This document shows, in pieces, positions 3,304 to 41,942 of a stretch of DNA of 64,000 bases. The position numbers and the translations under genes are program-made. Numbering within the stretch: the first letter of the stretch is position 1; each line of letters starts with the position of its first letter. The stretch comes from Ischnura elegans (taxonomy: Eukaryota; Arthropoda; Insecta; Odonata; Coenagrionidae): the NCBI RefSeq assembly GCF_921293095.1, contig NC_060246.1:136958198-137022197 (forward strand), written 5' to 3'. The notes under the pieces are model-generated. The model was given only the letters and a program-made list of their open reading frames with translations, was not told the origin of the DNA and searched no databases.

Positions 3304-4863
3304 ATGGACCCGAAGGTAAGAGCTATTATCATGTCGTGAAATATTTAATAGAAGATATATGTTATTCCTGCCTTGTCAATTGTATGTATAATTTTTAAAT
3401 GCAATGTGGGGGTCTTAGAATGTCAAGTCAATGCAACATTATATTTTCTTTAACCCTCTTTCTCCATCATCCTCAATTCTACGGGAATTTAGGAGCTGTT
3501 TAAAGGGATAACTACCCTTCTCAAAGTGGACGACATATGCATTGATAATGTGGTGTTTCGGCTGCATTACAAGGCCACAGTGATGGTCCTTCTAGCATTC
3601 GCTGTGGTGGTGACATCCAAAGAATATATTGGAACCCCAATTAAATGTGATACGCATGGGAAAAAAGTTGAAGTGATTGATGCATACTGTTGGATATTTT
3701 CAACGTTCACCGTGAAGGAGAAGGTGTCTGCGGAGGAACTGTCCCGAAGTGGAGTAACTCAAAAAACGCACCCTGGACTTCCACACCACCCTGGGGTGAA
3801 GCCGGTGCCTTACAATTCTTCCTCGCCGTTCCAATTCATTGAAAGAGTGGAATATCAGAAATACTATCAATGGGTCGGTTTTGTTCTAATCCTACAGGTA
3901 AGTCATCCGCATTGAGTGCAGTTTGAGCTTAACTTGTCCAAATGGTTGCGTTACTGATCGTTTGTGAACGAGTATGGATAGTATTTTTTTATTTTACAGG
4001 CAGTTCTCTTCTACGTACCATTTTACTTGTGGAATCTTTGGGAAGGTGGTCGCATTAGGAGCTTGGTGTTGTCAGTGTCGCAACCAGTTGTCGAAATGGG
4101 CGAAGGCGATGAAAGCCCTCAGAGGACGGTCGAACCCGTCGTCAAATCCTTGATTATGTATTGGGAACACCATCTTCATTATCATGACAGCTACGCCTTC
4201 CGATATGCCCTCTGTGAGCTTCTAAACCTAATTAATGTTGTCGGCCAATTTTATGTTCTTGACACTTTTCTTGGAGGAAAATTCTTGGCTTACGGGACTG
4301 CCTTAATGGGAAATGCTGAATATACTGCGTCAGAGATAATGGAGCGTGTGTTTCCAAAGGTAAATAGATAATCACAAGTGATAATTCTTGTACTGAGCGA
4401 TCATGATGGTGGACTACGATACCCCTTATAACTTGTTATTGTAGTAAAATGCGCCTCATGTCTTGACATGGATTGTTTTCTCTTTCAGTTGGCGAAGTGC
4501 ACCTACCACAGCTACGGTCCAACTGGGACGATAGTGAACACTGATGCTCTGTGTGTATTAACCCTAAATGTGGTAAATTCCAGAATATTTGTCATTCAAT
4601 GGTTCTGGTTCATGATTCTATCGTTTCTATCAGGATTTACCCTACTTTATAGATTAGCTTGCTTTTTCAGTCTTCATTTACGTGTTTCTCTGCTGAGGTC
4701 TTGCACCCGTTGTCTTAGCAAATGTCGAGTGAAGGGTGTATTACGTGTATTCAACTATGGCGATTGGTTTATTCTATATCAAATGGCCAAAAATATGAAT
4801 ATTTTAATTTTTACTAGACTTTTGTATGATTTGGCCGAAAGATTCGGTAAGCATCAGGTGTGA
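3304..4863 (+). CDS. Innexin gap-junction channel subunit, 4 exons
   Basis: Coding exons are 3304-3315, 3493-3897, 4000-4359 and 4489-4863 (stop TGA). All introns have GT-AG ends and phase 0, giving 383 residues, a normal innexin length. The start at 3304 is supported by an in-frame TAA at 3283 and by N-terminal length. The first coding exon holds only MDPK. Family marks seen: VFRLHY before membrane segment 1 (about 30-46); paired loop-1 cysteines at about 56 and 70 (the second in YCW); YYQWV at 128-132 at the start of membrane segment 2; LWNLWEGG after it; loop-2 cysteines at about 263 and 281; a WFWF fourth segment; GDWF in the C-terminal tail. Innexins form intercellular channels and hemichannels in the plasma membrane of invertebrates. 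The protein is divergent, so I do not assign it to a numbered orthologue. Confidence 0.93.
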
Positions 4864-5453: not shown

Positions 5454-8400
5454 ATGATGGAGAGAGTGAGTAAAACCACAATTGTTGACACAATAAATAC
5501 AGCCAAAGAATATGCAAAAAAATTAGAAGAACTAGTAAAATCCCTTGATGAAGCTGAACAGCAGGTTTGTTGTCTTTTTTATTTTGGCCTTATCCCATAC
5601 TTTGTTGAGAATTGAGTCAAGCATCAATCTATTGCTTGTATCTATATCCCTTCTAATGTAGTCCATTACATTTGAATAGCTATGGACGTATCGAGTCCTC
5701 AGGCTTAATCCATTGCCCTCGTTCATTCAAACGTAAGGTGGATTGCAGTGCGTCGATGACCCTGGGGCATATAGACGCAGCTTTCGGTGAAATCAAAACA
5801 AGACTTGTCGATTCCTTGGAAAGACGGAGGGCTGCATTGAAAGCAGAAGTGATAAGTATCCAGAAAGAAGGATTAGCACCTTTGATAGCCTGTCGTGAAA
5901 TAGTGTGTCAGAAGCTTGAAGAAACTGAAGAATATATTTTAGAGGGTAAAGCACTTCTTGGGACTGCAGTTGGCGATCTTCCCGTGGTGGATTGTTCTTC
6001 CTACTGTGAACAAGCGTCCAATTTGGGAAAGTATGTGAAAAAATTGTAGTCATGTGTGTGTTCTCTATTTTTTTCCTCAAGTCGGCAAAATTAGAGACTC
6101 AAGTCAGCATATTATTGTTCATGGTAGTATGTCATACGCACATTTGCCTCTGTTTACATGGAGCTGAAGTTTTATTTTGCGTGTGTAATAAAGTCAGCCT
6201 CTTGAGTCACTCATTTAAGCGTTAATGATACTTAGAGATTTTTCATTCCAAGCTAATGTCTCTCATTTCTGATGCTATATAAATTATCATTAATTTATTT
6301 AGTTTGCCTGCTGTTCCTAAACTAGAAGAAGTTCCACGAATTTCATTTGATCTGCGAGTTGGAGAAGTATTGCCTGACTTGCTGAAAGTGGTGGTTTCTG
6401 CTGGCCGTGTTTCTAGAATGGGACCTGTGCAGCTCACACAGCTAGAAGAAAAGCCAGGAGCTCTTCTAGTTCACTGGGAAGAGGTGAGTTCTTCATTAAC
6501 TATTTATATTTACCAGCTGACTCGGCAAACTTTGTATTGCCTATTACTTAATCTATGAACAGTTTATCTTGTATGACGTTGGGCACGTTATGGTGGAAGT
6601 TCTTAATAATAGTAAGATTACACATTGCAATATTTTCACTCTTGATAATGTTGTTTGTAACGACGAAATAAAACTCAGTGGAAATATTGCAATGTCTAAT
6701 TTTACTAATATGAACAATTTAGTTACACCATTTATAAATCAAGAGCAGCTGTATTGATTTTAATAATTTTTGACTTAACAATGAATTTTTTAAATCATTA
6801 AAACTACAAAAAATAAGTGTTACAATGGCTTGTTAGAAAGATTTTATTTATTTAAATTTATTATTTATTTAGATATTTTATGCGTGGCTTTTTTTCAATT
6901 AATTTTCTTATTTTTATGTAATAACTTATGAAATTTTGAACATTGTGGTCTTATAAAGCAGTTAATGAAGTCTAAATTTTATGTGTTTAGTTGTTCGAAT
7001 ATTTGTGTTTTTAACAGCGCAAAAATGTTATTAGGTCCAAGTCGGTTGTGTAAACTTGCCCTGTTCTTGGATCAAGTTTACACAATGGTATACCGATGTT
7101 TGAATGATGCTAAAAATAGCATGAGAACAGCCCCTATGGAGCAGCATCAGCATGTAATGGCTTTTGGCGTGCCAGTTATATCTCGGTTTGTAAAAGTGAG
7201 TTGAGTTATTATGCCCCAGTCTACCCGACACATTCATGTTTATTCTCTTGAGCCAAGCATCTTCTGATATACAACAGTTTTTGTTTTTTTATCAGGCGCA
7301 ATAACAAATAAAGCGGATGGTTTACCAACTCGTCAACATACCACTTACAATTGACCACGAGAAAAACATAGGTTTTCAAGATTCAGGCCTCAAACACTCA
7401 CCTTGTGATTTGTTAATCATCATCACGAATGCAACATGGATTGGAAATTGAATTTGTTTAAACTCAAAGCACATATCGGTTGGGGTCATGGAAATCGTCG
7501 GGATGAGAACTCCCACATCTTTGAATTTTCCTTTGAGTATAGTACTGTGAATAACATTAATTATAAGTTTTATTTAATCACCAAAGGCATTCCATTACAT
7601 ACTTTTGGTTGGTTTAGATTTCGAAGTATCATGACCGCTGAGCCAGATTTAGTTGTAAATAGTGCAGTCGTAACCCTGGCACCAAGAGGTTTAAAAATTC
7701 AGATGGATAGTTGGTGACTTGGTTGTTGTTTGTAACTCGGTCAATAGATTTGAGCGAATACAGAGCACCGTCGATTTGATTCTGAATTACAAAGTTTAAG
7801 TCATCCACATCTTCGTTCTTAGCCACCAAAATTGCTAGCTCACTCAACTGTGTGTGATTTTTGCGGTTACCAATCGTATTCGGGTACACAGCTCATCTTT
7901 CAATGAAACTAAATTGCAAAAATTCCAAGAAAATGAAATTAATCTGCTCGATTTGTCATCTGGAATATTGCCATTACCTTTAGTCAACAATTGCTTGGAA
8001 AGTTGTTTACACGTGCAGTAGCTAGACGTGTTTGTAGACGACTCAACTCTACCTGGGGTTAGCTTGAATTAAATGGTTTTTCATTTTATTTTAAAATTCA
8101 GAGATGTTTTAACTAATAAACTTTTTTTTGTTACGAAGCTCAGTCATTAAATTGGTGAAAACAATATAAATCATCTAGTTTATAGATGCAGATAACTTAA
8201 GAAGTCTATTCAATGCAACTTATGGGATGTGGCAGTGAATTAGTAACATGAAAGTTATGAATTCTAATACATTTACATAATTTTTTTTAGTAACCTTTTC
8301 TTCTTTACTAACTTTCCTACAGCAGGATAAAAGGGATGCCAGCTGGATGAAAGGGATGTTCTTGTTCACAAATGTAGAGATGCCTCTCTTTTTCTGAATG

Positions 8401-11400
8401 TAATGTGGAGAGTATTCGAGGAAAATGCGGTTGGATAAGAAAGAAGAAGGAGGTCTAGTGAAAGATCCATTCCATTAATTAGCTTTCAAATTCAACACCT
8501 TTTTAATGAGGCATTGCATATTTTTCTGTCTTCCTTATTTCAGGAAATGTGACATCTTATACGAAGATGGTGTCTTTTGAGTTTCAGTTTTGAAGGCATA
8601 TTGTTATAGGTATTTTGTTAACCCTTCCATATGTCACAAAAAGGCTTCGTTTATGTTTTGGAATCAAATGGAGAGGATTAACCAAATTTCATCATAGTCT
8701 TTTACTTCAAGAGTTGATTTTGTCAATTTTCTGGTCTAATTTGGGTGGTGTGACCCAGGTGTGAAGCATTGTTTTTGACAAAAATGGAATATGGTGACCT
8801 GTATGAATTAGATTGGAGTGGCCCACTGTAGACTGAGAACTTGTATCCTTAAGTATCCTTGAGTGTTCTAAACTTAATGCTCTCTTGATTAGTACAGTAC
8901 ACTTTCGTTAATACGAACAACGTTACTTTCGTTAATACGAACGACGTTATTACAAAGTTCTCGTTATTAGGAAGCAAATCGTTGGTCCCGGCAAAAGGCC
9001 TATCCAAGCTATAGGAAAAGAAACGTTATTGGTAATTTTCGTTTTTACAAAATTACGAACCTCAGTCCCGACCAGGCGGTTACAAAATGAACTTTATTAC
9101 GAAGTCCCATGCATAAGCAATGGCATTTAGGTGGATATTCACTACATAAAGTTTTAATAATCATGCCACGTTTAAGTTCTCCTCATGTACTGTGACCAAG
9201 AGCGTCAATTATGGTTATTTCTTCACCATAAATGCAACGTCATATAATAAGCTTCATTCCTGGGGAATCATGGTGACCAACTCATTACAGCTCGTAAATT
9301 TGATGCACAGTTAGTCCTCTTCCTATGCACACTCGATTTACGAACTTTCACAGATACCAGCATGCAAAAATTTCAAATTTTGAATTTGGCACCTTTTGAT
9401 TTAGCCATTACTACACGGAGCTGCGTAGAGGAACTCACACTCTAGGCATAATCTGAACAAGGTATCATTGAATCTGGTGTGAAGTTAGGAACTGTTCAGT
9501 GTTTCGCACGTTCTTCCTTGCTGCGGAGAGCAATTTTTTTCGGCTCCGGCTGCTTTGAACACCCAGCTATATCAATTCATCTCAATCAGAGTTAGAGCAC
9601 AATTTGTATGCAGTGTTGCATTCTGCAGGATAACCATACTCCTCGATGCCTTGCATACAGTCCGGCCGGCGAGAGTTGCCCGATGGCGGCTTAATAAGAG
9701 GAGCGTGTAACCATGTGCCAGTACGGTTTACAGTCGATCGCTGTCTCCCAAACGCACCTCACACCATCGCAAACACCACTCATACAATGTTTTCAAAGCA
9801 CGGACATAAGCCTGATCCACCAAAACATGCCCTCTCCTCGAATCACCAAAACAAATGATTCTTCCTCTGGGTCCTTCACACTCATCGTCCCTTCCGGCTC
9901 CTTCCTTCACGGAGCTCTTTGTAGACGTTTCCCTTTCTTACCTGGCAACGCTGCCCTGATCTAGGCCATTCTGCCTGTCATAGGACAACTCTCGGCGGCC
10001 GGACCCTAGGTTTATCAACTTAGGAACAAGGTCTTGGAACGTATCTAGTTCATTTATCTAACTTACTGTATTCGGAAAGATATCAACCCTCGATCACGTC
10101 ATGCCGCATTCTTCTGTTGAGAAATTGAAACGAATTTTCCTGTTTATATATATATATCCGCGTAATTTAACCGCGTTTATCATATACGGTTTTTTTTTCG
10201 ACGATTCCTAAAAGAAACGTTCATACGAACTTCGTTATTATGAACCTCCGGCTTTTCGGTCCCTTAAACTTGGTAATAACAAGAGTCTACTGTATAAGTT
10301 TCTCATAATTATTCACATTCCCATCAATGGGCAGGTTAGAGTCCCTCCCCTCCTCTACCCCCACTCCCTCCCGTTAGAGCATAAGACGTATATCAATGGC
10401 TAAGTTCTAACAACACGCAAAAGTTCTAACAACACAATCTCAAAAATAGCAACTTTTCAGGAAAGCAAAAAAGGCGATTAATTTTTTTTACTTGTACACT
10501 GAAATTAAATACCAAAAGTTCATAAAACAGAAAAAAGAAGCATTCATTAGCAAACAAAGAGTTGTTTTTTGCCTGTATTAGTTTTTAAATGTTATTACAT
10601 TTTGCTTAAGATACCTGTCTCAAACCAGCCGAATTTCAGATACGTGTTGTTAGAACTTAGCCATCGATATACAGTGTCAAAGTAAAGAAATTTTTTCCTT
10701 CAAACTCAAGAAAAATAATTCATTAGACATAACGAGTATAAAAATTTTTTTGAAGGAATTATTTGTCACTATTGATAAAGTACTGCTGTAATTGTATTAT
10801 ATTTTTTTATTTTGTATTATTATGCCTTTTCTTTGCTTTAATGTCATAACCACAATGACTATCGTTCTAGTTTTGATCCAGCATAACTTTGTCAGTTATT
10901 TTTTCCTAGATCAGATACATGGTTTTCTATTGCATATGCCAGGATTATTAATGTCTCACGTTAGTGATTCAACTTTGTATCATCTACATGATAATTGTGG
11001 TTGGAGTCAGTCTTCCTTGATCACAAATGTTTTTAATTCCTTAAAATGCATTTGCTGCAATTCTTCACTTGAAAATTTCTGTAGATATTTGTGTTTCCAA
11101 GGCCCTAACATTTTCCAAAATCCCTAGCTTATTCCAATGTGTTGCTGTTAATTTGTGCTGTGCTCAGTTTTTACCACACACAGTTTACATCATAGCTTTT
11201 CACGGTATCCTACTGCCTAGTGATTTGGTAGTTTATCACCAATTCTATAGGTCTATAGTTATGTAATCAATTCAGGTTTCTATTTGTTTATTTACTAATT
11301 TAATAAGCCCATCAATAATTACAATAGATTTGAATGCATCTTGTGGCAATTACCATATGTCTGAAAATTTTCACTTTTATGTACTCTTTCACTCCAATTA

Positions 11401-14400
11401 TCTGCATTTTGTTCTTCGTGTCTTTTTTTTCCAAAGATATAATTTTCCACATTTTGAGACCACTATTTGATGTACATGTTCATCAGTGTCAGAAGTAAAG
11501 CTCTTGGAAAAGTATCAATTTTTTGCTGCAATGCCCATTTTATCATCAGAATTGTGATTGAGTGTTGATAGGTTTGGAAATAACCTAAACATTCAGGCAG
11601 GCGTTGCAAAGTTTGCTAGAGGTGATAAGTTTGGTATTCCATATTGTTTTGAAGGTCTCAAGATCCCTGCTGGCAATCAAATACCTTTTGCTTTCTGCAG
11701 GTGGACCTTGAGCGCACCGTGGACGTCCTCTCCTTCCGCTTGCAGTGTGCACATGGAGATCTCAGTGAAAGTGGCATCGCCACAGCCGTTGAGGGTGGGG
11801 GTGATGTGGAGGAGAGCGAGGGCACGAGCAAAGGGAAGGGAACGCCCACTCGTCTGCCTTCAACCTCGCGTTTCCTGGAGGGGAATTTCCACGACATGTA
11901 CAGAGGGCCAGAGACGGAGCACTTGGTGAGAGATCTGAAGCCAGGCGAGCAGTACACATTCAGAGTATGCTGTCGTGTGGAAGGTGATACCGAGTGGAGT
12001 GCTTGGAGTTTACCTCGGGTTGCTGCCACAAATCAAGACCATTTCTGTGAGTGCATTTTGCTCAATGTTTATTGGTTTGATACATGTTTATGCAGGGTAC
12101 CCACTCAACCTTGAAAACCTTAAAACCGTGAATAAGCCGTGAATTTCATATACCGTGAAAAAACCTGTAAAAAGCCGTGAATTTCGTCACAAAACCTTAA
12201 AAATCTTGATTTTACGATGGTAGAACTACGATTGACCGATTAAAAGAAAAATGGACATTTCGATCATATTTCAAGATCAGTCACGCGCAGACATGGCCAC
12301 GGATTTATCTGCACGCGTATATTGGAAGCGCAATTATTGGTCCGTGTGCCATGATGGCACATTGCACTTAAGCCTATACCAAAGCCGGAAGACTGGTAAC
12401 CAAAGTGTTCATTAACACTTGCGAAAATTCAGACACTTCTTAACTTCCCTGCCACCCTGGTCCCTCTCTCTATTTTCCCACTCACAACCATAGCAGGAGC
12501 AGAATTTTGCTAACCATATGTGACGTCTGGAGAGGTAGCACTCTGATTGCTGCGTTTGCATTCACGGCATCTGTCGCGTTTGTTAAATTTTTAGTTAACG
12601 TGCGGCCGATGATTGTTAAGTGATCAATATTTCTGCCTAAATGGTTTATGTACAAACCGTGAATTCGAAGACATTTAGACCGTGAAAACCTGGAAAAACC
12701 GTGAATTTTATAAGTTAGATTGAGTGGAAACCCTGTTATGCCTACAGTAAAACTTTGATTTTACGCAGTTGGAGGGACCAAAATATGGGCACTGCGTAAA
12801 ATCAAAGTGTGTAAAATCAAGAGTTGGTATTGAGGAGGAGTATAGTTTTCAGGATAGCACTTGCTCATTATTGCTCGGAAAATGAAGCCTAATAATCTTA
12901 TTTACTCAAAAGCAACACCACAGATGACGTGTTACCTCAAGAGAAACAACGTTGCATTCCTGAACAGTGTTTCCCAAGGTTGAACAAAATGGTTGAAATG
13001 CCATTTCTGGCTCTAAGATTACTTCTGTTACCCAGGAGAAATTTCGGAATGGTGATACTAAATGGTCGCAGAGAAGCTAATTTTTGAAAATATTCTCATT
13101 CAAAGGAGCTTTCAGGATATCCATTTAACCACCTGCAGACAAAGAAAGATTGGAGATTGAAGAAATGAGATACCTGAGGATTAGTTCAAAGTTTACTGGG
13201 ACTAGCCGCGGTGATAACTTTTACGGGAGTCACCCTCAACTTTCGCACGATACCTGAGGATAGTCATCCTAATTAACCCCATTAACAGGGAGCAAACTTT
13301 TGCTAATACATCACAAAGGCTTTACACCCTGTGGGCCTGGGTTCAAGTCCTGGCAGTAGCAGAGACTTATCAGAGTTGGCCCTATCCCTACTTGAGTCTA
13401 ATGTGGAGGGCACTTCCAGTGCACCACTCTGTCCATCAGATGGGAAGTTAAGTCCTGGTCCCTTTTGAGCTTATCATTACAACCTGGCCTATGCCAACAT
13501 AGGGTTCCTATCCCCCCAGCCATTACTTCATGGTGCTAATGATCCCAGTTGTTGGTTGCCTCCAAATAGCATACCATAGATAATACGGAGTACACAGGAC
13601 CCAGGATATTCGGAAATTCAGATTTTTCCGGTGCTTAGATCACTTTTTTTAAATGAGCTATTTAAATGACCGCATAACTGCCGTCATGCCGCCCGTGATG
13701 AATAAAAAATGACTAATAGTCTGAAAAATTTTCCTTCTTTATAATTTATACGCATTAAAAAAGCATTTCCCCAAGAAATTTTAGCATTAGTAGATTGACT
13801 CTTCCGGGAATAGCTTCTCTGTCGGCATTCTTCCGCGAATTCAGCGCCGGGACCTTCGACTCACAAGCCGTCTGACTGGTGTGACTCAGCTTCACGTAAT
13901 ATTTTGCTTCCCCATATCTGATAACAACACCGGACACTTTTTGTATTTCGATTTAATGGTACTAAGCCATTCCTGAGTTTAAAGGGACTGCCTTATCACT
14001 CTCGTCTTGAATTTGACTTCAATGATTACATGACGATTGACGACGCGAGTTATTCTCCGAGGGCATTAACTCCCGTTCTGTTAAAACGCTTGCCACCTAG
14101 CGAAGTTAAGCTAATAGCTATTCAAGTTCCAACCATGTTAATTTAAACCCTCTGACAATGAGATACAAGTTGAGTCGGATCTGATAAGCGCGCAGCGCAA
14201 GCAATTTTCCCTCGCCTCCATTTGTCCCGCAGATGTGGGGTTAGCCTGGGAATGAGACAATGCATTCCTCTTTTACCAACGTGTTGAATCACCATCGACT
14301 TACGTCCATACTAGAAGTACGACTATCTTTTTTGGATCACCTTGGAAGCCAAAATTGTGGCACGGGAGTATTTTTAACGACTCATTTCGCCGTTATATTT

Positions 14401-17400
14401 CGCTGGGGCGACGGAAAACATAGCGTTGGCAAAATTCTAGAAAGCCTTGCGTTGGGGATAGATATTCCGTAGCTCATAATTCTGGATATAAACAGCGTCG
14501 ATCAATAAGTCGAATAATAAACGAAGGGTGATAATGTTAATATCTCCAGCGATCATGTCTTGATCAAAAGTAGTTACGCATACCCGGCGATTGCCGTGTG
14601 TTTTAGGTTTCGATATCCTTCTACGGCGAATTTGAACTAAGAACGACATTCGCGTTCGTAATGGAGCGTGAAATATTACTGAGAGGGCTCACGGGGAAGC
14701 AATATTTACATTCGCGATGTTTTTAGTTTCACGCTCAACAGCGCGACATCATTTCAACCGTTCCTGTATTCATTTTTGCAACTCATTGAGACGAAATAAT
14801 AACCTAACTTCATATTGCTCCAGTCGGATTTTCAAAACAAGCCGAAAGACAACTGCGTAAAATCAAGATTAGCGACCTCTTGGGGGCTGGGGTTATGCTG
14901 CGCAAAATCGAAAAACTACGTAAAATCAAGAAAAGATGTAAAATCGAAGTTTCACCATTGCAATTCCCTATGCTTTCCGGCTGGACTTGAGTGCCGCTGC
15001 GTAAAAACGAGACTTGATGTATAATCGAAGTTTTACTGTATTTCGCTATCCATACATTAATGCATTTGTTAAAAGTAAATCACTGCTGAATACAGGGTGT
15101 ATGGTGACTGGGAAAACATGGAGAATAAGGAATCATGCATGTATTTTTAGTCCTTGGAATTATGCATGAGTGTTTGCTCCAAACGGGAATTTCAACATAC
15201 AGCACACTCCCGATTATCGGGGCTAATGGCGGGGATGGATGCACAAATAATCGAAAAACATGGATAACCCAAACTTTCACTTAATGTCTTGTAATGTTTG
15301 TAATTCATTTAAAACAAACAATATATTATTATTTATGCAGTTATTCCTCTTATTTTAGAATGCTTCTCGGACTCATTAAGGGCTTTATTCGCCAGTTTGC
15401 GATCTTTTTGCGGTGATGAAATGGTTGTACTCATATTTGTAATGCTCCATGTAAGCCTGGTTTCGAAAACCACACATCCGTGGCTGTGTAATCATGGATA
15501 CAGAAAAGTGGTTCGCACGAATGCTTCAAAACCACTGCTCACGTAGGAAACTACACTATCGGGCACCACACCACGTAGTCACCTCTCGCACAAGTTGCCC
15601 AGGTGGCAACTGCCATGGGACGTGTATCCGTGATCACGAAGCGTGGTGGTGCACTGCGAGGCTTGGAAAACAGGAACACGGTGCTCCCGTGAATGCAGTT
15701 AGTGCACGATCGCTTCTGTTTTGCGAAGGGAAGTCTAACGGAAATAATAAAACCCTGTGTATCCCAACATTAATGCCGTAATTCCGGCGATTTTGCGTTT
15801 GCGTCCATTTTATTTTTTTATAAAGATCATGGAAAAAATTGAGCAAAAGTGAAAATCATGCACGGATAATCTGCAACACGGATGTACCGCAGCCGGATAA
15901 TCTAAAGTCTGTTGTATTTTATTTTGAATTCAATTCACATAAAATTTTGCCTATTTTTTATCCTAAAATGTGTTGGTCGTAATTTTAAGTGCAGTAGCTT
16001 AGTAGAATTTTTATAGCTGCATCAAAACGCAATATTGTTTTAAAGTACTGAAGAAGTTTTGGATGTTTTAAAATCCTTATTTATCACAGTGATCACATGA
16101 GATTAACCTGGAATTTTGTAAAATTTCCCTGGAAAACCTAGAATTATGAATGAATTTTTGTGCTTTGTTTGGCTGGATACCCCGTAAATATCCAATCTTC
16201 TCACCTGATCAGGTACCAAACACTCGCATGCACGTACCACTGCAGTCAGTATCTGAGTTTAGAATGCAGTTTTAAAAGCCTTAGCAATTAAAAAGTTAAC
16301 TTTCAAACATAGGCATGGTTTAGAATGAAGGGTTATCAACTCAAAATGGAAATAAAACACGTAGGCATTTCAACAGTTCCATCGTATCTTTTAGTGTTGT
16401 TGCTAATTTTTGGTAAAATTACATTCAATCATTGAGACTTCATGCTCATGTCCCACCCCCAAATTCTTGGAATGTGTGTTTTCCTGCTGGTACAAATTAT
16501 TCTCTAGAAAAATTGGTAATATGTTACTTTATTCACTCATGATTATATTACGCCTGGTGCTATCATTAATGTTGAGTGTATGAACTTAATGTACTTCATT
16601 AATGCACATTAATTACAATAACCTAAGCAAGTTAACAGTTGATATGTTGATGAAGCCAGGTAAATGTTTGAGAGTGCATTTGCAGTGGTATTTTCAATGC
16701 CTTTAACTTTTTAACCTAACCTTCTTTTCATTTACAGGCTGGGAAGACAAAAACCCTAATTATTTGGTGACCAATGAAAATAAAATAGCCACGAAAATCA
16801 CATCGGATCCATCGATTCTCTTCTCTAGATCAGCGCAGTTTGGTTCTGGCCATTCAATTGAGTTCACGGTATGGAATGCACTTGTTATTTATTTAGGAAT
16901 AACTGATCGTTATGCATGTTTTTACATTTTATTGGTCCTTACCCCTTCTCTGCCAATTATTGGCTATGTCTTGTAAGGTTTTTCATCTTCAAATGAATGA
17001 ATAGCAGCTATTTCCAAAATTAGTTTTCCTGAGTAAAAGAGTTTTCTATGGCTGTAAAGCAGTGGTTCCCAACCTTTTCTTATTTGAAGCAGCCCTGGAA
17101 AGCCTTTCAAAAGTTCCCGGCACCCTTATAAGGAAATAGATATTTAAAATCCCCGTAGCTTTTTTATTATTATTTATTTATTTGTTTCATTTCGAGAGTT
17201 TGCATGCAACAACACCTTATACCTAGTCCTAGATGATATGAGAATACTGTTTACACTGATTCTGCCTTAATAAAAAAAATAGTATTACGATACAAATATG
17301 TAATTGTGACAAGTTTTTCTGTAGTTGCACAATGTATTCAAGTAGTTACAGTGTTACACTATGATACAAGACAGACACACAAATAGACCACAGTGCACCA

Positions 17401-20400
17401 TGCATGTATACTCAGTGTGAAACTTGTGATTGATGCTTGGAACACAAACTCTTGATATCAGGTCTTATTGTTGACAATGCCACCTGCATATCGTCCTCCA
17501 GTGAAAGAAGCCTATTTCTTTGTTTCGATTTTATTGTAGCCATGGCAGAAAATGCCTGCTCGCACAGATACGATGTGGAGAAGGGCAAAAGTAGAGAAAT
17601 AGCTTTCTGACCCAAATTAGGGTATTCCCCCAATGTTGCATGCCAAAAAGCTGCCAGTGTCACGTCACTCTTCTCAAATTTGACTTTCAGTGTTGAATCA
17701 GCAGACATATCAAGAAATTCGTCACATTCTATTGCCGTGAAGTCCAGCTCTTCAGCCATGTCAGCCAGTTCGAAGGGTGATACAATCCATTCTAGTTTTT
17801 CTGTAGACAGCGATGGAAAATACTTATCAACTGCTTCTCTCAGCTGTTCCAAGTGATTAAGAATCAGATTTTTTACAGTTCCAAAGCCGTTATATCCTGC
17901 TTGTTGAAGAGAAGGGAAGATTGACACATCGTCTCTCTGAACAGCCGACTTCTATGATTTTAGCTTTCTCTGGAAACCTTTCATCTTGTTAACTGATGTT
18001 ACAATTCCCTCAAGTCTTCCTTGCATTGAGAGATTTAGTTCATTCAGCTTCATGAAAATGTCTGCCTAATATGACAGCTTCAAACACCAAGCATGATTTT
18101 CAAGCAGCTTTATGAATATATCATGTCTCTCCTCTCGGAAAAACTCTTTTAATTCTTCTTTGAGTTCAAGAACGCGGTTCAGTACACGACCTCTTGATAA
18201 CCACCTTATGTCAGTATGCAAAATCAGTGAAATATGATTCGCACCCATTTCTTGGCACATCTTTTGAAAAACTCTATTTTGCAGTGGCCTGGATTTGATT
18301 AAATTAACCATCTTGACAGCCTGGTTTAAAACCTCAATTAACTCTTCTCCACACGTCTTGGCTACTAAAGCCTCTCTGTGTAGGAAGCAGTGAGTTGTAG
18401 TTATAGATGGATTTTCTTTCAATGCCCTGGTGATGAAGCCTTTGTACTTCCATATCATCGACGGTGCACCATCAGTACATATGCCACAACAGTAATTCCA
18501 TGAAAGACCATGTTCAGTGAGGTACGAATTTACAGATGCAAAGATATCCTCTCCAGTAGTTGTAGTCTGTAACTCTTTGCAAAACATAAACTGTTCCACA
18601 ATATCCTTGTCAATGAATTTGCAAAACCCAAGCAGTTGGCATTTTCCAGCTATGTCAGTACTCTCATCTACCTGCAATGCGAATTTTCTTTTCGATTTTA
18701 TCTGCTTCACAACTTCTTCATTAATATCTGTTGACATTTCAGATATCCTACGGCTGATTGTGTTGTTGGAAAGAGGTACTTTCGAAATCTGTTCCTGAGC
18801 TTCTTTGCCAAGTATTGTTTCTACAATTATGTTGCATGCAGGGCCAATGATTTCTTCACCAGTTGTATGAGGCTTCATTTTCTTTGCTATCAGCTCTGCT
18901 ACTCTGAAGGAAGCTTCAAGAGCAGTGTCAGCTACTGTTACCTTCTTGACCATTTTAGTAGCCGCCTTACTTTTCCCTTCTAACATACGAGAAAAATATG
19001 CCATGTCCTTCTGTGACACAAAAGGGTGTTTGCTATTGAGGTGCCGCTTGAGCTTACTTGGTACCATGGCCTCATTGCTGAGTGTAGCTCCACAAACTAA
19101 ACACACAGGATGCGGATTATCTTCATCATTGTTTGAAGTAAAACCATATGCTAAATAGGCATCAATATATGTCCTTTTATTCGAGAGAGATGCGTGTTTC
19201 CCCTTTTCGCAATTTGATTCAGATGGAGCAGGAACACCTTCAGTGTTTGACTTCGAAGCAGTACCAATACTGGAAGCCACCATTTGGTCTGGAGATTCAT
19301 CCGCCTGTACTTTTCGCTTCCTCACTACGAACTTATCCATCCTTCTTTTGCGACGCTGTCAGATAAGATATATTCTGAAAAAAAGGAAAAAATCACAGAG
19401 GCTTAAATTAGTTTCTCATAGTTAAGTAGAGAGTGACAAACACAGTTTTAGCGTATCACAAGAATTGCACTTGATCACAAATTTACGTGCACTCGTGCAC
19501 GTGCTGCTTAATACAATACCTTCTGCCTCCTTTGATTCACCAATCAGTACTGAGGCATGCTGGCGAGTGGCGACTGGCGACTCGCTGTGCGCCCTGTCCT
19601 GTACGTGTGTTATATGCGTCAATCCACAACCCTCACTGAGGAACGGGTGGGGTGGAGAAGGACTCTCCGCTATCTCGGTAGTCCCCTCCCTCCCTCCCCC
19701 TGCCCGCCAAGAGAGAATGACGTTAGTGCAATTTTTTCCCCGAAATTTTGGCGGCACCCTCAAAAGATCTCACGGCACCCCTTAGTGCCACGGCACACCG
19801 GTTGGGAACCACTGCTGTAAAGGGTAAGGAACATGACTGCTATGAAATCAATAAGCCTAAGTACCGTATAAGCGCGTGTAAGAGGCGCACCTTTTTTCCC
19901 AGAAATTGCAGCCGTAAATGAGGGTGCGCCTCTTACACAAATTTCTTATCTTCCCCCCCCTCCCCTTCACCAGTCGAAAGTCAAAGGGGAACTGAGTGGC
20001 CTTGGTTTCCAGTGTGAGTCAGTCATCTGAAACCCTAGGTCAAAAACAAGCGGCAGGCAGGGGAGTTTCTCCCTTAGTGACGTATTTTTAAAATGCTCCT
20101 GTTTGCTTTTCTTGTAAGCATCGCGCCGTCACGTCGGTACCCCAGAGGTGAGCATGGAAGATCTCGCAGGGTTTTTCGCTCCAGAGGGCGCGCTAAATTT
20201 ACTGCCACGAAAGGGCTTCCCACGGCATTTATACTGCATATAGTAATCACTTTTCAAACATAGAGAAATGCGTAGTTTTGAAGGACATACCTGGTTAATA
20301 GCCAATATCTGTCTTGCCAAGTAATTTCCATTACGCTGAGGACCTGATTTTCCAAAAATCATCTTCAGACGCTAATATGAGGATTATGGCAACTGAAAAT

Positions 20401-23400
20401 TATATTGGCATCAAAACCTGCGCTTTAAAAAATTTGAACGAGTGTGTTCATTGTTGGACTAAATTGTGGATGGAAGAAATCAGAAATACTTACAAGTGAA
20501 GAGCGCGGAAGGAGAGGTCGAGGGGAAGGAGCGCGATCCCTCCGTCTTCGAAGCAAGCAACGAAATACGAAGGGGAAGGAGCGCGCTCCCTCCCCTCCGT
20601 ATTTCAAGCTACGAGGCTATGAGTGAAGCAGCACGGGAAGAACACGTCCAATCTTGCATGTGACGTCGTTGCCTTCAAAGCGAAGGGGCGAAGGCGCAGC
20701 AATGTGATATACGCAGTTTGCGTTGCCTAAAGTTTCCAGTCCGTCTCGTCTTGTTTGAATGTGCTTATGCTACGCTTGTTTCTTCCAAAATTGTCCTGTT
20801 TGGACTATTTTGAATATCAGTAGCCTTGTTGTAACTATAAATCTTTGTGTCAAACAATTAGAGCTTAAAAAACTTAAATTCTGTCAGATATGCGTCGCGT
20901 TAGATCTCTTTCTTTTTTTGAACCTCGTGCGTGTCTTACAATATTGAAAGCTATCGAGATATCTTCGGGCTCAGTAGATGACTCACCCAGCATTTGGCCT
21001 CCATAAACTGAGAGATCGATCAGGTCAGTTGGTGAGACGGGGTAGGGATGAAACACGTTTCCATTGTTCCCCTGTAACTTGATGTTTTCCTATTTTCCTG
21101 TGGGGTCTCGGAAAGGAAAAAAATGGCAGAGGCATTGGCTGATGGAGGTTTGAATGTGGCTTCATTAAATCTACGAGGTGGTTATTATCCTACGGCGCTG
21201 AGATTGCCCCGATTGTTGTCCAAGCTCTTGGGAAGGTTCATGCTATGAGACTGTCACGTATTGCCTTAAAATTTTCCACGGCTGCAATTCTATTGCAATA
21301 CTCCTGCGAGGGCATTTAAACAAAATTTTTCTTGAATAGTACAAGCATCGTAGAGCAACAGCGTATGCGAAGACAGGATCGGAACTCTTTCTACTCCCTC
21401 TTATGCCGCTATTACCGCCGCAGTTATCAAAATTTCCTTTTTCAATTAATATTGAAAAAGGAAAATTCAATAACTGTCGAACTTCCAGGCGTACTGGAAT
21501 TTCGACAGTTATCGAATATACGTCTGCAACACCACGCAATAGTATTAAAAAAATGCCGCAAAATTTTTTTCTTCATAGCTTCTATGTTCAAAATAGGGAT
21601 GCGCCTCTTACACACGCTTATACGGTATGCTGCTACCCTTAGGGGTCGAGCTAAGCCCATTTCTCTACTACTGGGATTGACTCTCTGATTGGATTCAAGC
21701 ATAACTTAGTGGAACTGCTATCTTATGCCAAATAAATGCACATTTTTTCCATAAAATGCAATTTAAAATACCAACCAGAGTTTCACACATTCTATTGGCA
21801 TTTTCAAGGTTCAAACAACAAGTAAAATGTAGTGGGAAAGAGAGGACGCTGGGGAATAGGAGGTTAAGGTTGTCAGGGAATGGTGATTAGAGAAACCGTA
21901 TTGACTATTTAGGTGACTAATGAACTAAAAGCCATTCATTTATATTTCATATTATTTGGACAATTAAATGATTATTCTTTCAATATTCCACACTTCTTAG
22001 TTACAATACCACCTACTCATGCTACATGCTACACATCAAAGGACGGCGTATACAATTTCGTTTGTTTGGATATGCAGAAGAAACCCTGGTAAGGTCAAGG
22101 AAAAGTGTGGAGGGGTAGTGAGGTGGTTTAACTATATATGAATGGTTTTTTGTGATGAATATGGAAGTGTGTCAATTACTTCAATTTGAATAACATGGCC
22201 ATTAAAAGAGATGGGTGGAAGTAGAGGAGATTGGTATGAAAGAATGTTTTTTATGAAAGGTGTCAAGTTGTCAGAGTTAAGGCCTGATGATTATTATATG
22301 AGAGGATATATCACAAAACTAAAAGATTTAAAATACTGTGTATGTCTGAATATAGTCCCCCCCCTTTTTTTTTTCAAAAAATGCCTGTAAAGCGGGGGAC
22401 TGTATTCAAATACATTTTTTTTAACTTTTCCCGAAACTGAAGCCTCAAAATTATGGGGGGGACTATATTCGGAGAAATACGGTAATAATTTCCTTTTTTC
22501 TTGTGAGAGGGCAAGGTTCTCTGGTCCCAGTGTGCTCGAATTATTGAGGTATGTTGTTGTGCACCCACACCTCAATTATCAATTTTATGATTGGTACTGT
22601 TCTGTCTAATATTATGAGGCCTTGTTCCAGTTCAACACTCAATTTTTATTATTGCTTTTAAAAATCTGCAATGCACGGCAATCCCTGCACCCCATGCAGC
22701 CTTTGCCCAAGTAAGAAATGTATTTTGGTATAATTTTATTTTTTCTGCTCATAAACTGCGACGTAGTTACTTTTGACGTGGTTATTATCCTACGATGCTG
22801 AGATTCCCCCGCTTATTGTTCAACCTCTTGGGAAGGGTCACACTATGTGCCAGTTGTATTTTGGCTTTTCTATTTTCCACAGCTGAAATTCTGCTATGCA
22901 ACATCTGCGAGAGCTTACAAACAAAACTGTTCATGAGTTGGACAAGAATTGCATGCGACGGCGCATTCGAAGAGAGGATTGGAACTCTTTCCACCCTTAT
23001 GTCCCACGTTGTATTCATTGAAGCTATTATTTAAAATTTCAGATCCAGGTCCGATGTCTTCCGAGACTTTGGATCTGATGTATCCGATGAAGGGCAATAT
23101 CTGCTGATATTTTGATCCGAGGTATCCGATCCGACCATCCCTAGTGAAAACATTTTGTGAACAAATCAGGGAAATCATGTATTCCTTTAAGCAAGATATT
23201 CATGTATCAATTGATCTGTTTTCATCATTAAAGAAGTTGACTTATACTATTTGGTCTCTCACCCAGCTGAAAACCTATGAGTATCTCATCCTACCTCTAC
23301 ATATCAGGAAAAGTGTACCAAAATACGTTTTTTTTAAAAGGTCTCACATTTCCTTGTGCATTAAGATTAAACAAGTTATTTGATTTCAATTTTGCATTTT

Positions 23401-24782
23401 CTTTGTTAATATTAATACGTACCTGTTATTAATTATTATATTGAAGAATCTTATCATAAGAATTTACTTTCAGATATTAGAAGCTGGAGTGGGGTGTAGT
23501 GATGAGGGCTTAGGACTTGTGAATACTAGATTTGATGGAGATAGTCTTCTTCAAGTTGGAGCTCTATTCTTGAACACACTTGGTAAATATATATCATTTT
23601 TGGTCATAGTTTATAAGTTTTTGGTGAATTATTTTTTAGTTTAGCTTGTTGGTAAAAATTAGAAAAAAGTCTTACCTGGAATTTAACTAATTACACTGAG
23701 CTTATTTTTTTTAGGAAAAATAGATGAAAATATCATGTATACAAATGTATTTTTATTTTTGGTCTTGGTAATATACAGTTTAACTATAAAATTTGTAATA
23801 TGTATGCAAAATTATTCTTTGGCCTACAATACAGTAAAATCTACCCTTCTGAAAAACACTTTTTTAACTGCACAAAAATTCTTTTTTAAATTTACATGGC
23901 ACTCTACAATGCCATTGTTAAACTTTTTGCTGCATACTCAGTCACTCACTCCCATAGCCATTTATACTCTTAAGTGGTATTTAGCCTCGCCAACTGTTTG
24001 CCTCTAACTCCTGACTTCTGCATTCGCCTCGCTGACTCCCATTTTCCCCATATCAATCTGCACCTCATCCTTCCATCTTTTTCTCGGTCTTCCTGGAGGT
24101 TGCCTTCCATCAGGGTTTTCTGCTCAGACTTGTTCTACTTGGGCCTCTTGCTCTCTTCGTATTATGTGCCCTGCCCATCGCAATATGTGGCTCTTAGCTT
24201 CAGCTAATACATCTGGCGAGTCAAAAAGGTCCCTGATTTCCCTGTTGTGTTTTCCTCTCCAGTTCTCCCTTGGTCCAAAAACTTTCCTGAACACTTTATT
24301 TTCAAAGACAATTCATTTATTTTCCGTTCTTTTGTCAATGACTCCTGATTCAATTCATTTACTCTTTCAAAATTGTGATCCTCAATTGTAATTTTTCTGG
24401 AGTTATCAGGGTTTTTATGGAACGGCATAAATTTGGTTTTATCATAATTGTGCAACGTATCATTTGTAATTTCAACCAATTTTGGGTATGTAGTTCGTGA
24501 GTAATTTTTTTAACATCGCCTTTCTTTTGTCTTAATGTAGGTTGTGTTTTTGTGGATGGTGCAGAGAAAACTACAAGACTTCCACCATTAGTCAAAGGCT
24601 CTAAAGTGGCCTTCTCCTGTGAGCGCATACGAGAAGATCGTATTAGGGTTAATATTGACAGCAATAACAAGACAGTGACTTACGATTGGAGGGTGGAAGG
24701 TGCCAGCTGTGAAAGTGAACACTTTCGCCTCTTCTTTGCCCTTTGTTTTGGTGAAACTGGATGGAAAGTGCTTGTAGAGTAA
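5454..24782 (+). CDS. CRLF3: Cytokine receptor-like factor 3 (CRLF3), 7 exons
   Basis: Exons: 5454-5564, 5738-6030, 6303-6483, 11701-12046, 16738-16868, 23474-23582 and 24541-24782 (TAA). Phases join correctly and give 470 residues (human about 442). An in-frame TGA at 5439 supports the start, which is a double Met. Residues 1-130 form a charged helical coiled coil; about 135-310 include the fibronectin III region, ending in the cytokine-receptor signature WSAWS at 294-298; 312-470 are the SPRY-like C-terminus ending in the conserved GWKVLV block. CRLF3 has no signal peptide or membrane segment here. In Locusta and Tribolium it has been linked to erythropoietin-responsive neuroprotection; Drosophila is reported to lack it. 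An acidic and Gly-rich insertion at about 218-247 interrupts the FN3 domain. The exon 1 donor (GTTTGT) and the exon 2 acceptor (near 5737) are weak, so that junction is the least certain. Introns 3-5 are swollen by transposons. Confidence 0.93.
6484..7254. other. CRLF3 intron 3, 5' part
   Basis: AT-rich intron sequence. Short open frames at 6569-6757 and 6965-7204 resemble nothing I know and are probably chance. Confidence 0.4.
7255..8060 (-). pseudogene. Helitron-type PIF1-like helicase fragment
   Basis: Minus-strand translation in shifting frames matches the C-terminal third of the PIF1-like helicase carried by Helitrons. In order: FSKQLLTKGNGNIPDD and an LISF segment; LAILVAKNEDVDDLN; the NYPSEFLN and VPGL segments; MILRNLNQPKVCNGM; IPTISMTPTDMCFEF; the helicase motif MINKSQG; a degraded block like ENPCFSHGQLYVACSRVG; and a tail APDKKTKTVVYQK. 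Several frameshifts and stops make it non-functional. No Rep/HUH region and no Helitron ends were seen, so this is a partial copy in CRLF3 intron 3. The family call is confident; the exact limits are approximate. Confidence 0.8.
8061..8894. other. CRLF3 intron 3, unassigned
   Basis: No gene or repeat boundary recognised between the helicase fragment and the Tigger-like element. Confidence 0.35.
8895..10292. mobile_element. Pogo/Tigger-like non-autonomous element 1
   Basis: A 1.4 kb element bounded by TA (8893-8894 and 10293-10294). Left end starts CAGTACACTTTCGTTAATAC; the right end read inward starts CAGTAGACTCTTGTTATTAC. Subterminal words TTCGTTAATACGAAC (left) and ACGAACTTCGTTATTATGAA (right) repeat inside both ends. 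No DDE transposase frame survives. An internal inverted repeat of about 19 bp (9660-9678 with 9984-10002, core CCGGCCGGCGAGAGTTG) may mark a second, nested element. TA duplication and CAGT ends are typical of Tc1/mariner pogo-type elements. Confidence 0.75.
9660..10002. repeat. Inverted repeat pair inside Tigger-like element 1
   Basis: GTCCGGCCGGCGAGAGTTG at the left is matched by CAACTCTCGGCGGCCGGAC at the right with one mismatch, enclosing about 305 bp that is more GC-rich than its surroundings. It may be a nested element; no target duplication was clear. Confidence 0.55.
10391..10669. mobile_element. 279-bp MITE with TA duplication
   Basis: Ends are TATCAATGGCTAAGTTCTAA and, read inward from the right, TATCGATGGCTAAGTTCTAA, continuing identically through CAACACG: one mismatch in 27. 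TA flanks both sides (10389-10390, 10670-10671). The word AAGTTCTAACAACAC recurs just inside the left end. It has no coding capacity and lies in CRLF3 intron 3. Confidence 0.85.
10672..11700. other. CRLF3 intron 3, 3' part
   Basis: AT-rich. Frames at 10792-11127 and 11558-11929 are low-complexity or shadows of exon 4. The segment ends in a good pyrimidine tract and CAG at 11700. Confidence 0.4.
12093..12735. mobile_element. 643-bp MITE, CAGGGT ends
   Basis: Left end CAGGGTACCCACTCAACC, right end read inward CAGGGTTTCCACTCAATC. Subterminal words AAAACCGTGAAT and CCGTGAATTT repeat at both ends. The flanks share TTATG on each side, so the target duplication looks like 5 bp. CAGGG ends suggest a hAT-type element, but the duplication is shorter than the usual 8 bp, so the superfamily is open. 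Confidence 0.7.
12745..15038. mobile_element. Tigger-like element family A, copy 1
   Basis: A 2.29 kb element flanked by TA (12743-12744, 15039-15040). The left end begins CAGTAAAACTTTGATTTTAC and the right end, read inward, begins CAGTAAAACTTCGATTATAC. The word GCGTAAAATCAAG or close variants recurs several times inside both ends. The body holds a tRNA-related SINE piece and a stretch (13600-14700) that is essentially identical to copy 2 at 57133-59361. No transposase is visible; a 60-codon minus frame (13755-13937) and two 70-codon frames are shared with copy 2 only because the DNA is the same. It sits in CRLF3 intron 4. Confidence 0.85.
13312..13585 (+). repeat. 5'-truncated tRNA-derived SINE (in family A copy 1)
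   Basis: The segment carries a tRNA B-box-like GGGTTCAAGTCC at 13339-13350 followed by a non-tRNA body. An A box is not evident upstream, so the tRNA head appears truncated or degraded. The same segment is in family A copy 2, so it was present before the two copies separated. SINE identity is inferred from the B box only. Confidence 0.4.
15200..15914. mobile_element. Pogo/Tigger-like non-autonomous element 2
   Basis: A 715-bp element flanked by TA (15198-15199, 15915-15916). Left end CAGCACACTCCCGATTATCG; right end read inward CAACAGACTTTAGATTATCC. Subterminal GATTATC and GGATAATC words repeat near both ends. No transposase. It lies 161 bp downstream of family A copy 1. Confidence 0.75.
15917..16737. 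other. CRLF3 intron 4, 3' part
   Basis: AT-rich intron sequence without recognised features, ending in TTTCATTTACAG before exon 5. Confidence 0.4.
17060..19814. mobile_element. Near-intact hAT transposon (ZBED/Charlie-like)
   Basis: A 2,755-bp element with perfect 15-bp terminal inverted repeats, CAGTGGTTCCCAACC (17060-17074) and its complement (19800-19814), flanked by a perfect 8-bp target duplication CTGTAAAG (17052-17059, 19815-19822). An 8-bp duplication and CAGTGG ends are standard for hAT. It carries one minus-strand transposase frame broken only by two stop codons. It lies in CRLF3 intron 5. The perfect ends and duplication suggest a fairly recent insertion. Confidence 0.95.
17412..19340 (-). 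pseudogene. hAT transposase, two in-frame stops
   Basis: Read from 19340 down to 17412 in one frame (642 codons): an N-terminal BED-type zinc finger (CLVCGATLSN... with HLNSKHP), a DDE/RNase-H-like core including QVDESTDIAGKCQ and CTDGAPSM, a CFLHREALVAK segment, and a C-terminal hAT dimerisation block (SYLCEQAFSAMATIKSKQRNR). Two TAG codons interrupt it, at about 18066-18068 and near 17951-17953; no frameshift was found. The 424-codon first part and the 171-codon last part are each open. The family is the ZBED5/SCAND3-like hAT group, which has also been domesticated in vertebrates, but here the flanking terminal repeats mark it as a transposon gene. Either stop could instead be a sequencing error. 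Confidence 0.92.
19864..21625. mobile_element. 1.76-kb TA-flanked element with CCGTATAAGCG ends
   Basis: Ends CCGTATAAGCGCGTGTAAGA and, read inward from the right, CCGTATAAGCGTGTGTAAGA, continuing GGCGCA; one mismatch in 26. TA lies on both sides (19862-19863, 21626-21627). It begins 42 bp after the hAT duplication. Inside are stacked hairpins: GC-rich inverted words around 20515-20610 (GGGGAAGGAGCGCG/CGCGCTCCCTCCCC), CCTTTTTCAAT/ATTGAAAAAGG around 21437-21463, and ATAACTGTCGA/TCGACAGTTAT around 21470-21514. No protein recognised. Confidence 0.75.
21700..22330. other. CRLF3 intron 5, unassigned
   Basis: AT-rich intron sequence with no recognised gene or element. Confidence 0.35.
22336..22482. 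mobile_element. 147-bp MITE with poly-C/poly-G arms
   Basis: Left arm CTGTGTATGTCTGAATATAG followed by CCCCCCCC; right arm read inward CCGTATTTCTCCGAATATAG followed by CCCCCCC. TA on each side (22334-22335, 22483-22484). It is a foldback-capable short element without coding capacity. Confidence 0.75.
22774..23000. repeat. Diverged fragment of the 19864-21625 element
   Basis: The stretch starting GGTTATTATCCTACGATGCT and including CTCTTGGGAAGG and GGAACTCTTT aligns with 21180-21410 in the same orientation, with substitutions and small gaps. No terminal repeats accompany it, so it is an internal fragment. Confidence 0.7.
23950..24300 (-). pseudogene. Non-LTR retrotransposon RT C-terminal fragment
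   Basis: The minus strand reads NKVFRKVFGPRENWRGKHN, then DLFDSPDV, LRWAGHIIRREQEAQVEQV, a stop, GRQPPGRPRKRWKDEV and IDMGKMGVSEANAEV. This order (RWAGH, then GRP-x-RW, then a helical tail) is the standard C-terminus of LINE reverse transcriptases downstream of the polymerase core. At least two stops are present. It lies in CRLF3 intron 6, antisense to the gene. Confidence 0.85.
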
Positions 24783-24828: not shown

Positions 24829-24834
24829 AATAAA
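24829..24834 (+). terminator. Candidate CRLF3 polyadenylation signal
   Basis: AATAAA 47 bp after the CRLF3 stop codon. It is the nearest canonical signal; use is not shown by the sequence alone. Confidence 0.5.
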
Positions 24835-33115: not shown

Positions 33116-34517
33116 TTTGAATCCGCATCCTCTTTTCTTATGTATTGTGACAAGAATATAAAAAATTAAAGTATGTCGTAAATTGTTTAAAAAAATTTAA
33201 TTGAAAACTCTGTAAGTACATATGTACGTATTTACGTACAACATTACATGAAAATATGTAATAAGTTATTCAATGAATTACATATACTTGATTGTTTTAT
33301 AGCAAATTTATTTTTAAAATTATTTTAATCCAATCCTCTCTTTCTTTCTATTATAAATATGTTAATAGGTATTATTTATTCCCAGAATATTCCGTAGCGA
33401 ACTTAAATCGTAGGTGTCACTTGCAAAGCCGGCGCTAGACCTTTTCCACCATCGCAAAATATAAATAACACGAGAGCTGTCTGCTAAGAAAAAAAATTTG
33501 CATTTATGAAATAACTAAATTACTTACCTAAATCATATGAATGCTGATTTGTTGACATCACTTTTTAATAGCACTAGCGCGCAGTTCAATTTGCATCGCA
33601 TAATTGACCGTTTAAAAATTTTTATATGCGAAGGCGTTGCCGCGTTACTTCGTGGACGACCGGCAAATTCTTTACACCATGACCCTTTTTCTCTCTAAAA
33701 TTCCCCCGTTTACAACTTTTGTGCAAGATTTCATGTTTTAATAACGATGTTCCGAATGATGCTAGATCGCTAACGAGATAAGAAAAATATCTGCGGAAGT
33801 TTATAAAGGGCTTTGTCTTCATTTTACTGCCGCAATATTTTTTCATCGCTGCCAATGCCGAAAAATGCCACTGCTCATTAATTGTAAGTTCACCAATCCA
33901 ACCATGGCTGAGAGAATACTTCTCGTACATAACGCAATATATATTAGTACTTTTAATTGAAAAATCGTGAAGAAAATGGTCAAAATACCGCAGTGATACA
34001 GTGAATCCCCATTCGTTGCCATGCGCTACGACGATGAGCGTCCCAACCGTTACGTCACGCCCCTTTAAAAGTGGGCGGGGAAGGAAGGGAGCGGAGGGGA
34101 GATGTTGGCCACATGGCGAGACATGGGTAGGGGTGGGGAATGGCGGGTCTAGTTCTTATATGGTCTAAGATTGTGTCCTTAGACCATTTAAGTAAGTAGA
34201 CGTGCCATTCAGGCGGAACGCTGTGGCCAACATCGCACGGCGGGGAAGTGAGTGGGATGAGGGAGCGTGACGTCACGGTTGGGACTGCAGACGATATTCC
34301 GTATGCGCGCTTGAGATATTTTAACGCTCATTCGCTGCAAAGTCGCCGAAAAGTGACGATATTGGGCACGCAAAATGATTATACATTTAATAAATATATT
34401 TTTACGATGAACTAAGGCATTTTATAGCCTTGACTGTGCGCAAAAAGCTAAATAAATCAAGATGAAGCTAGAAGCGATCGTATTAAATAAATTGATTAAG
34501 AATGTCATATGTAAACA

Positions 34518-41256: not shown

Positions 41257-41942
41257 ATGCCGAAGGTCAGGAGAAGCAAAAAGGCTCCTCCAGAAGGTTG
41301 GGAATTGATTGAGCCGACCCTAGAGGAACTGGAACAGAAAATGAGGGAGGGTGAGCATTCTTTCTCTTGAGTCTTCATGAATGTAAAGGTTTCTTTTAAC
41401 GGCCTGTTAAATCAGAAGAGAATTCTTGAGTTTTAAATTTTAATTCACAGCCGAGACAGAGCCCCATGAAGGCAAGCGGAAAGTGGAATCCCTATGGCCT
41501 ATTTTTAAAATTCACCATCAGAAGTCAAGGTATATTTACGACTTATTTTATCGGAGAAAGGCTATCAGCAGAGGTAAGAAATTTGTCTTAGATATTCGAG
41601 TAAGTCTTATCCTTTTGAAATTTTGATTCCAACTAATTCTCGTTCCAGAATTGTATGAATTTTGTCTTAGAGAAAACATCGCTGACAAAAATCTTATTGC
41701 AAAATGGAAGAAGCAAGGCTACGAAAACCTATGCTGTCTAAGGTGTATACAAACAAGAGACACTAACTTTGGTACCAGCTGCATTTGTCGTGTTCCAAAA
41801 GGAAAATTGGAAGAAGTATGTTTTTTTTATTGTGTGCTTACTTGTCATGTTGAATCAGTGTGCATTCACTTACCTTGTACTAATTTTTCAGGGAAGAATT
41901 GTCGAGTGTATACATTGTGGTTGCAGAGGTTGTTCCGGGTGA
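41257..41942 (+). CDS. BUD31: BUD31 / G10 splicing factor, 4 exons
   Basis: Exons 41257-41350, 41451-41573, 41649-41815 and 41892-41942 (TGA) join with GT-AG ends and matching phases to 144 residues, the same length as human BUD31. The protein starts [20 protein letters not shown] and keeps the very conserved [32 protein letters not shown] and [17 protein letters not shown] segments. The C-terminal half carries the cysteine set ([17 protein letters not shown]) that binds zinc in the family. BUD31 is a nuclear protein of the activated spliceosome, in the Prp19-related complex, and is close to universal in eukaryotes. Introns are short (about 75-100 bp), unlike the neighbours. Nothing odd in the coding sequence. 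Confidence 0.98.

Follow-up and report, generated by a model that had tools for sequence, protein, structure and literature searches.

A CRLF3 orthologue in the damselfly Ischnura elegans and its probable reading as an intracellular adaptor

Class I cytokine receptors carry a signal peptide and FN3 domains in tandem, along with a membrane helix and a box 1 motif, and class I TRIM proteins are laid out as coiled coil, FN3 and SPRY. The latter order is also given for FSD1 and FSD1L, of which FSD1L is described as cytoplasmic and FSD1 is reported as a microtubule binder (PMC13087403). For CRLF3 itself, the mouse structure determined at 1.61 A places FN3 at residues 179-273 and SPRY at 274-442, and the same paper reports that mouse CRLF3 interacts with the kinase STK38 and influences both the phosphorylation of MOB1 and the stability of microtubules (PMC7614665). 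The papers on insect CRLF3 treat the protein as a single-pass receptor (PMC6797617, PMC5509957, PMC10165946). According to a 2025 review, the protein has no identified signal peptide and its domain structure is contentious; classical cytokine, Hippo/Rho and stress modes of action are all weighed there (PMC12026705).

CRLF3 is reported to span cnidarians to mammals, with a tree of 293 species (34 of them invertebrates), and was found in 5 of 128 insects checked by transcriptome (PMC6797617). The first-pass annotation of the DNA analysed here had stated that Drosophila is reported to lack the gene and that the locust and Tribolium orthologues are tied to erythropoietin (Epo)-like neuroprotection, and both statements can be found in print (PMC6797617, PMC5509957, PMC12026705). 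One published table pairs Drosophila elg1 with CRLF3, at odds with the reported absence from the fly (PMC10864285). We take this entry to be a quirk of the homology table. Presumably elg1 is the orthologue of ATAD5, which we take to be the human neighbour of CRLF3. Among the papers listed in a literature search, the sole one pairing CRLF3 with Odonata did so only in its reference list and none of those listed for dragonfly, damselfly or Ischnura carried CRLF3, from which we claim no unpublished status for the gene, nor for the FSD1-CRLF3 link discussed below.

Gene model and neighbourhood of the damselfly CRLF3 locus

The window, that is, the whole stretch of 64,000 nucleotides analysed (Ischnura elegans, C1:136958198-137022197), contains a CRLF3 model of seven exons on the forward strand, with 1,413 coding bases that translate into 470 residues and end in a TAA stop codon. 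The features of the locus, with what each call is based on, are as follows:

5454-5564, + strand: exon 1, residues 1-37 including the start codon (open frame, donor CAG/GTTTGT)
5738-6030, + strand: exon 2, residues 38 to 134/135, region of the coiled coil (joined in phase 0; acceptor AAG, weak)
6303-6483, + strand: exon 3, residues 135-195, linker and opening strands of FN3 (entered in phase 2, left in phase 0)
11701-12046, + strand: exon 4, residues 196-310, remaining FN3 and WSAWS (splice sites, phase)
16738-16868, + strand: exon 5, residues 311-354, SPRY part 1 (splice sites, phase, alignment to 6rpx)
17060-19814, - strand: hAT transposon in intron 5, outside the gene product (Dimer_Tnp_hAT above cut-off, inverted ends)
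23474-23582, + strand: exon 6, residues 355-390, SPRY part 2 (splice sites, phase, alignment to 6rpx)
24541-24782, + strand: exon 7, residues 391-470 and stop, SPRY part 3 (acceptor, TAA, alignment to 6rpx up to the GWKVLV end)

All six introns, 173 to 6,605 bases in size, are of the GT-AG type and the phases (0, 2, 0, 1, 0, 1) are consistent at all six junctions. The start, stop, exons and length first read from the letters were reproduced, as was the WSAWS motif at residues 294-298, ahead of which stands FRVCCR. In-frame stops lie at 5439 and 5427, upstream of the ATG at 5454, and an AATAAA is found at 24829, 47 bases beyond the stop codon.

The junction between exons 1 and 2, which the first-pass annotation had wanted confirmed above all others, was scanned over donors 5500-5639 and acceptors up to 5829. 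Among 12 frame-keeping pairs, 5565/5737 ranked best with 4 points on a crude home-made score with a maximum of 7, its acceptor AAG being weak. The resulting join reads EAEQQ/VDCSASM and appears to line up without gaps with the N-terminus of human CRLF3. A search of the genome for the gene returned seven matches at E <=0.001, one per exon and all at this locus, and no second copy or retrocopy at that threshold; CRLF3 looks to be single copy in Ischnura elegans.

The hAT element is flanked on both sides by the 8-bp duplication CTGTAAAG and its transposase is split into two separate open frames. A 430-aa piece of it matches at least eight genome sites, intron 5 included, at 92-100% among the 98 of 391 candidates scored. 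On the same strand as CRLF3, pieces of an innexin gene occupy 3493-4860 (+), with Pfam Innexin matches on three frames; the stop of the last of these ends 590 bases upstream of the CRLF3 start codon and an AATAAA lies at 5157. Further along, an exon of BUD31 (41645-41848, +) is the single match to this gene in the genome, and downstream of it a PDAP1 (PP28)-like exon was recognised by eye at about 43115-43214 (+), where a Pfam match is absent. The sole PP28 match in the genome is at C1:137030834, 8.6 kb past the window and on the same strand. BUD31 and PDAP1 are, we assume, neighbours in human as well, and they possibly form an old gene pair. Two near-identical open frames at 33625-34155 and 37357-37770 (both -), about 3.7 kb apart, are probably a repeat; the former has no Pfam match.

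Homology to mouse CRLF3 and an extra loop in FN3

Compared by phmmer with solved structures, the protein finds mouse CRLF3 (PDB 6rpx) at E 1.1e-32, its best stretch being residues 256-469, which excludes a chance match and bears out the name given to the gene at first reading. Identical residues number 75 of the 209 aligned, divided into 22 of 53 for the FN3 part (256-308) and 53 of 156 for the SPRY part, which alone reaches E 5.7e-14. Residues 169-210 give a further weak match to positions 2-41 of the 6rpx chain (13.2 bits). Up to E 0.1 the structure search adds just four hits, three to gp130 chains and one to a prolactin receptor (E 0.024-0.093), and the SPRY part run by itself up to E 10 matches four sequences, with no SPRY structure except CRLF3. 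Common to the mouse and damselfly proteins are the FN3 with its WSXWS, followed by a SPRY that ends in GWKVLV.

Generic domain searches return less. Pfam fn3 marks one stretch, 179-297, at 23.6 bits (cut-off 25), and the scan of the 470-aa protein makes no SPRY call. Genome-wide, none of the 11 SPRY matches falls in the window, and neither does any of the 80 fn3 matches listed, for which 150 of 265 candidates were scored. A Pfam Pur_ac_phosph_N match (0.0044) is under the cut-off and covers the same stretch as fn3; we set it aside as FN3 likeness. NCBIfam yielded no family, and a search of phage records with exon 6 only yielded no match. The assignment is based on CRLF3 itself, without generic domain models. 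As to the domain order initially suggested (coiled coil, FN3, SPRY), 6rpx upholds the last two, and the coiled coil is backed as helix only: exon 2 is modelled as mostly long helices with moderate confidence (mean pLDDT 65.6), and residues 1-172 match in the PDB three designed armadillo-type chains alone (E 0.035-0.63). Exon 4 folded by itself gave an unusable model (mean pLDDT 44.5).

The clearest departure from mouse CRLF3 besides ordinary divergence, judging from the alignment, is a loop in the FN3 at residues 211-255 (11746-11880), with many Gly, Ser, Glu and Lys residues: mouse has 6 residues where the damselfly protein has 45. The SPRY alignment between the two shows a 10-residue gap.

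Both the loop and the long introns invite other readings of the gene. That the seven exons are two genes, one for a coiled coil and FN3 and a separate one for SPRY, could be suggested by the lengths of introns 3, 4 and 5 (5,217, 4,691 and 6,605 bases) and by the transposon sitting in the last of them. Against this, one alignment to mouse CRLF3 alone (256-469) takes in exons 4 to 7, and no junction breaks the frame, so that the FN3 and SPRY exons belong to one gene; that the SPRY exons come from elsewhere, a possibility raised at the outset, is very improbable, and we give the two-gene reading hardly any credence. An unrecognised intron in place of the loop (about residues 211-255) is improbable to a lesser degree. 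It would leave a protein of about 430 aa, near the 439 aa reported for locust (PMC6797617), and in its favour count the absence of the loop from mouse, the 54 frame-keeping GT-AG pairs of at least 60 bases in exon 4 and, at acceptor 11880, a passable run of pyrimidines (11 of 15) with three in-frame donors. However, those donors (11725, 11788, 11806) fit the consensus poorly and the G+C content is 61% in 11760-11885 versus 33-40% in the six CRLF3 introns. Nor is the uncut length remarkable, since 470 aa lies inside the 391-504 aa reported for insect CRLF3 (PMC6797617). An intron inside exon 4 is disfavoured, and on sequence grounds we read the locus as a complete, intact CRLF3 orthologue.

Surface receptor or intracellular protein

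The description of the gene as one of cytokine-receptor type held in part. WSXWS is present (WSAWS, 294-298), and with the strand preceding it is common to the damselfly protein and class I receptors such as gp130 and the leptin and prolactin receptors; the signal peptide, tandem FN3 and PxP by which those receptors differ were not found. No hydrophobic core was seen in the first 40 residues, where the best 11-residue Kyte-Doolittle mean is 0.33, and stops in frame stand ahead of the ATG; the former is a test of hydropathy alone, and this is a start whose result an unseen upstream exon could alter. A box 1-like PxP occurs nowhere in the 470 residues, a pattern that may differ from the one behind the JAK-site prediction of Hahn 2017. 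In place of the tandem FN3 pair (CHD) there is the single fn3 stretch at 179-297, and exon 2 ahead of it is modelled helical.

The most hydrophobic 19-residue window is 379-397 (mean 1.53), and exon 6 provides the bulk of the hydrophobic stretch 377-397. The aligned mouse residues have a mean of 0.29 and are inside the SPRY of a purified fragment that was crystallised. On the same scale, three innexin exons from the window used as controls peak at 1.70, 1.48 and 1.76; because these overlap 1.53, hydropathy alone cannot exclude a membrane helix, and we dropped it as a disproof.

Likeness to receptors was gauged with a CRLF3 profile. Uncut, it retrieves 56 sequences up to E 10, 41 of them class I receptors or receptor-like subunits when counted by name (gp130, the leptin, prolactin, IL-2, IL-23, IL-31 and LIF receptors, IL-27 beta). 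Ended just before WSXWS, it retrieves 21, of which two are class I receptors, in a comparison where no receptor was cut likewise as control and the mouse row spans only part of the domain. Behind CRLF3 itself, the shortened profile brings up generic FN3 proteins first, titin (1.1e-5) at their head, with a designed FN3, FNDC3A and receptor phosphatases among them, and the E-values of gp130 (1bj8) and the prolactin receptor (2lfg) go from 7.1e-4 to 1.3 and from 0.011 to 1.5, respectively. Since removal of the motif lowers the class I share in this way, the receptor likeness appears to reside mainly in the motif stretch. The FN3 of TRIM9 matches the two CRLF3 profiles at E 1.1 and 1.2 only, which gives no clear tie in sequence to the FSD1/TRIM group; RING or B-box, a point of difference from TRIM, is not among the Pfam hits of the damselfly protein. 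A genome search with PF00758 (erythropoietin/thrombopoietin-like) returned no match, and is uninformative since 14 controls were equally silent.

The rival reading is a true class I cytokine receptor at the cell surface, with FN3 outside, one membrane pass, JAK docking inside and an insect cytokine as ligand, and published knock-downs of CRLF3 speak for a receptor role. The human protein is stated to cross the membrane once and to carry a JAK site (PMC6797617, PMC10165946), and JAK docking sites are predicted for Tribolium and human CRLF3 (Hahn 2017, PMC5509957). Knock-down in beetle and locust neurons is reported to abolish protection by Epo and by hemolymph (PMC12026705, PMC5509957), and uptake of EV-3 is gone in human CRLF3 knock-out neurons, where its binding to CRLF3 is called "highly likely" by the authors, without direct confirmation (PMC10165946). 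As RNAi and knock-out abolish the Epo, hemolymph and EV-3 effects, CRLF3 is needed for protection. WSAWS preceded by FRVCCR and the 41 receptor matches of the uncut profile agree with this picture. It is opposed by a start that is not signal-peptide-like, the lack of PxP, the one fn3 stretch and the position of the most hydrophobic stretch inside the SPRY fold, where a membrane helix would break SPRY. For the damselfly protein the case for a cytokine receptor is weak and we consider it unlikely.

We lean towards damselfly CRLF3 being an intracellular coiled-coil/FN3/SPRY adaptor with an FSD1-like layout, the parts following the order given for FSD1 and FSD1L (PMC13087403), here with the coiled coil as helix only. 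As an intracellular adaptor, the protein might form oligomers through its helical N-terminus, use its FN3 as a spacer or docking face and bind partner proteins through its SPRY. The protection that Epo-like proteins give insect neurons would then need CRLF3 indirectly, without ligand binding at the cell surface. Counted against the adaptor are the RNAi and knock-out data, the stated transmembrane and JAK sites, the receptor matches of the uncut profile and the missing Pfam SPRY call. The more sweeping statement, that CRLF3 is no cytokine receptor at all and is a cytoplasmic adaptor of FSD1/class I TRIM type whose WSXWS is structural and not a sign of kinship, the Epo effect being indirect, we put forward as a tentative possibility.

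The locus is a new lineage record for an already known gene, and the added lineage pointed out in the first-pass annotation is a fair claim. Presence of CRLF3 in Odonata makes its absence elsewhere easier to read as loss. The damselfly gene also supplies a diverged sequence for putting the "receptor" claim to the test, with the FN3-SPRY unit kept and a secretion signature not found. If true, single-copy CRLF3 in Odonata, outside Neoptera, would place the protein at the base of the winged insects, with losses later.
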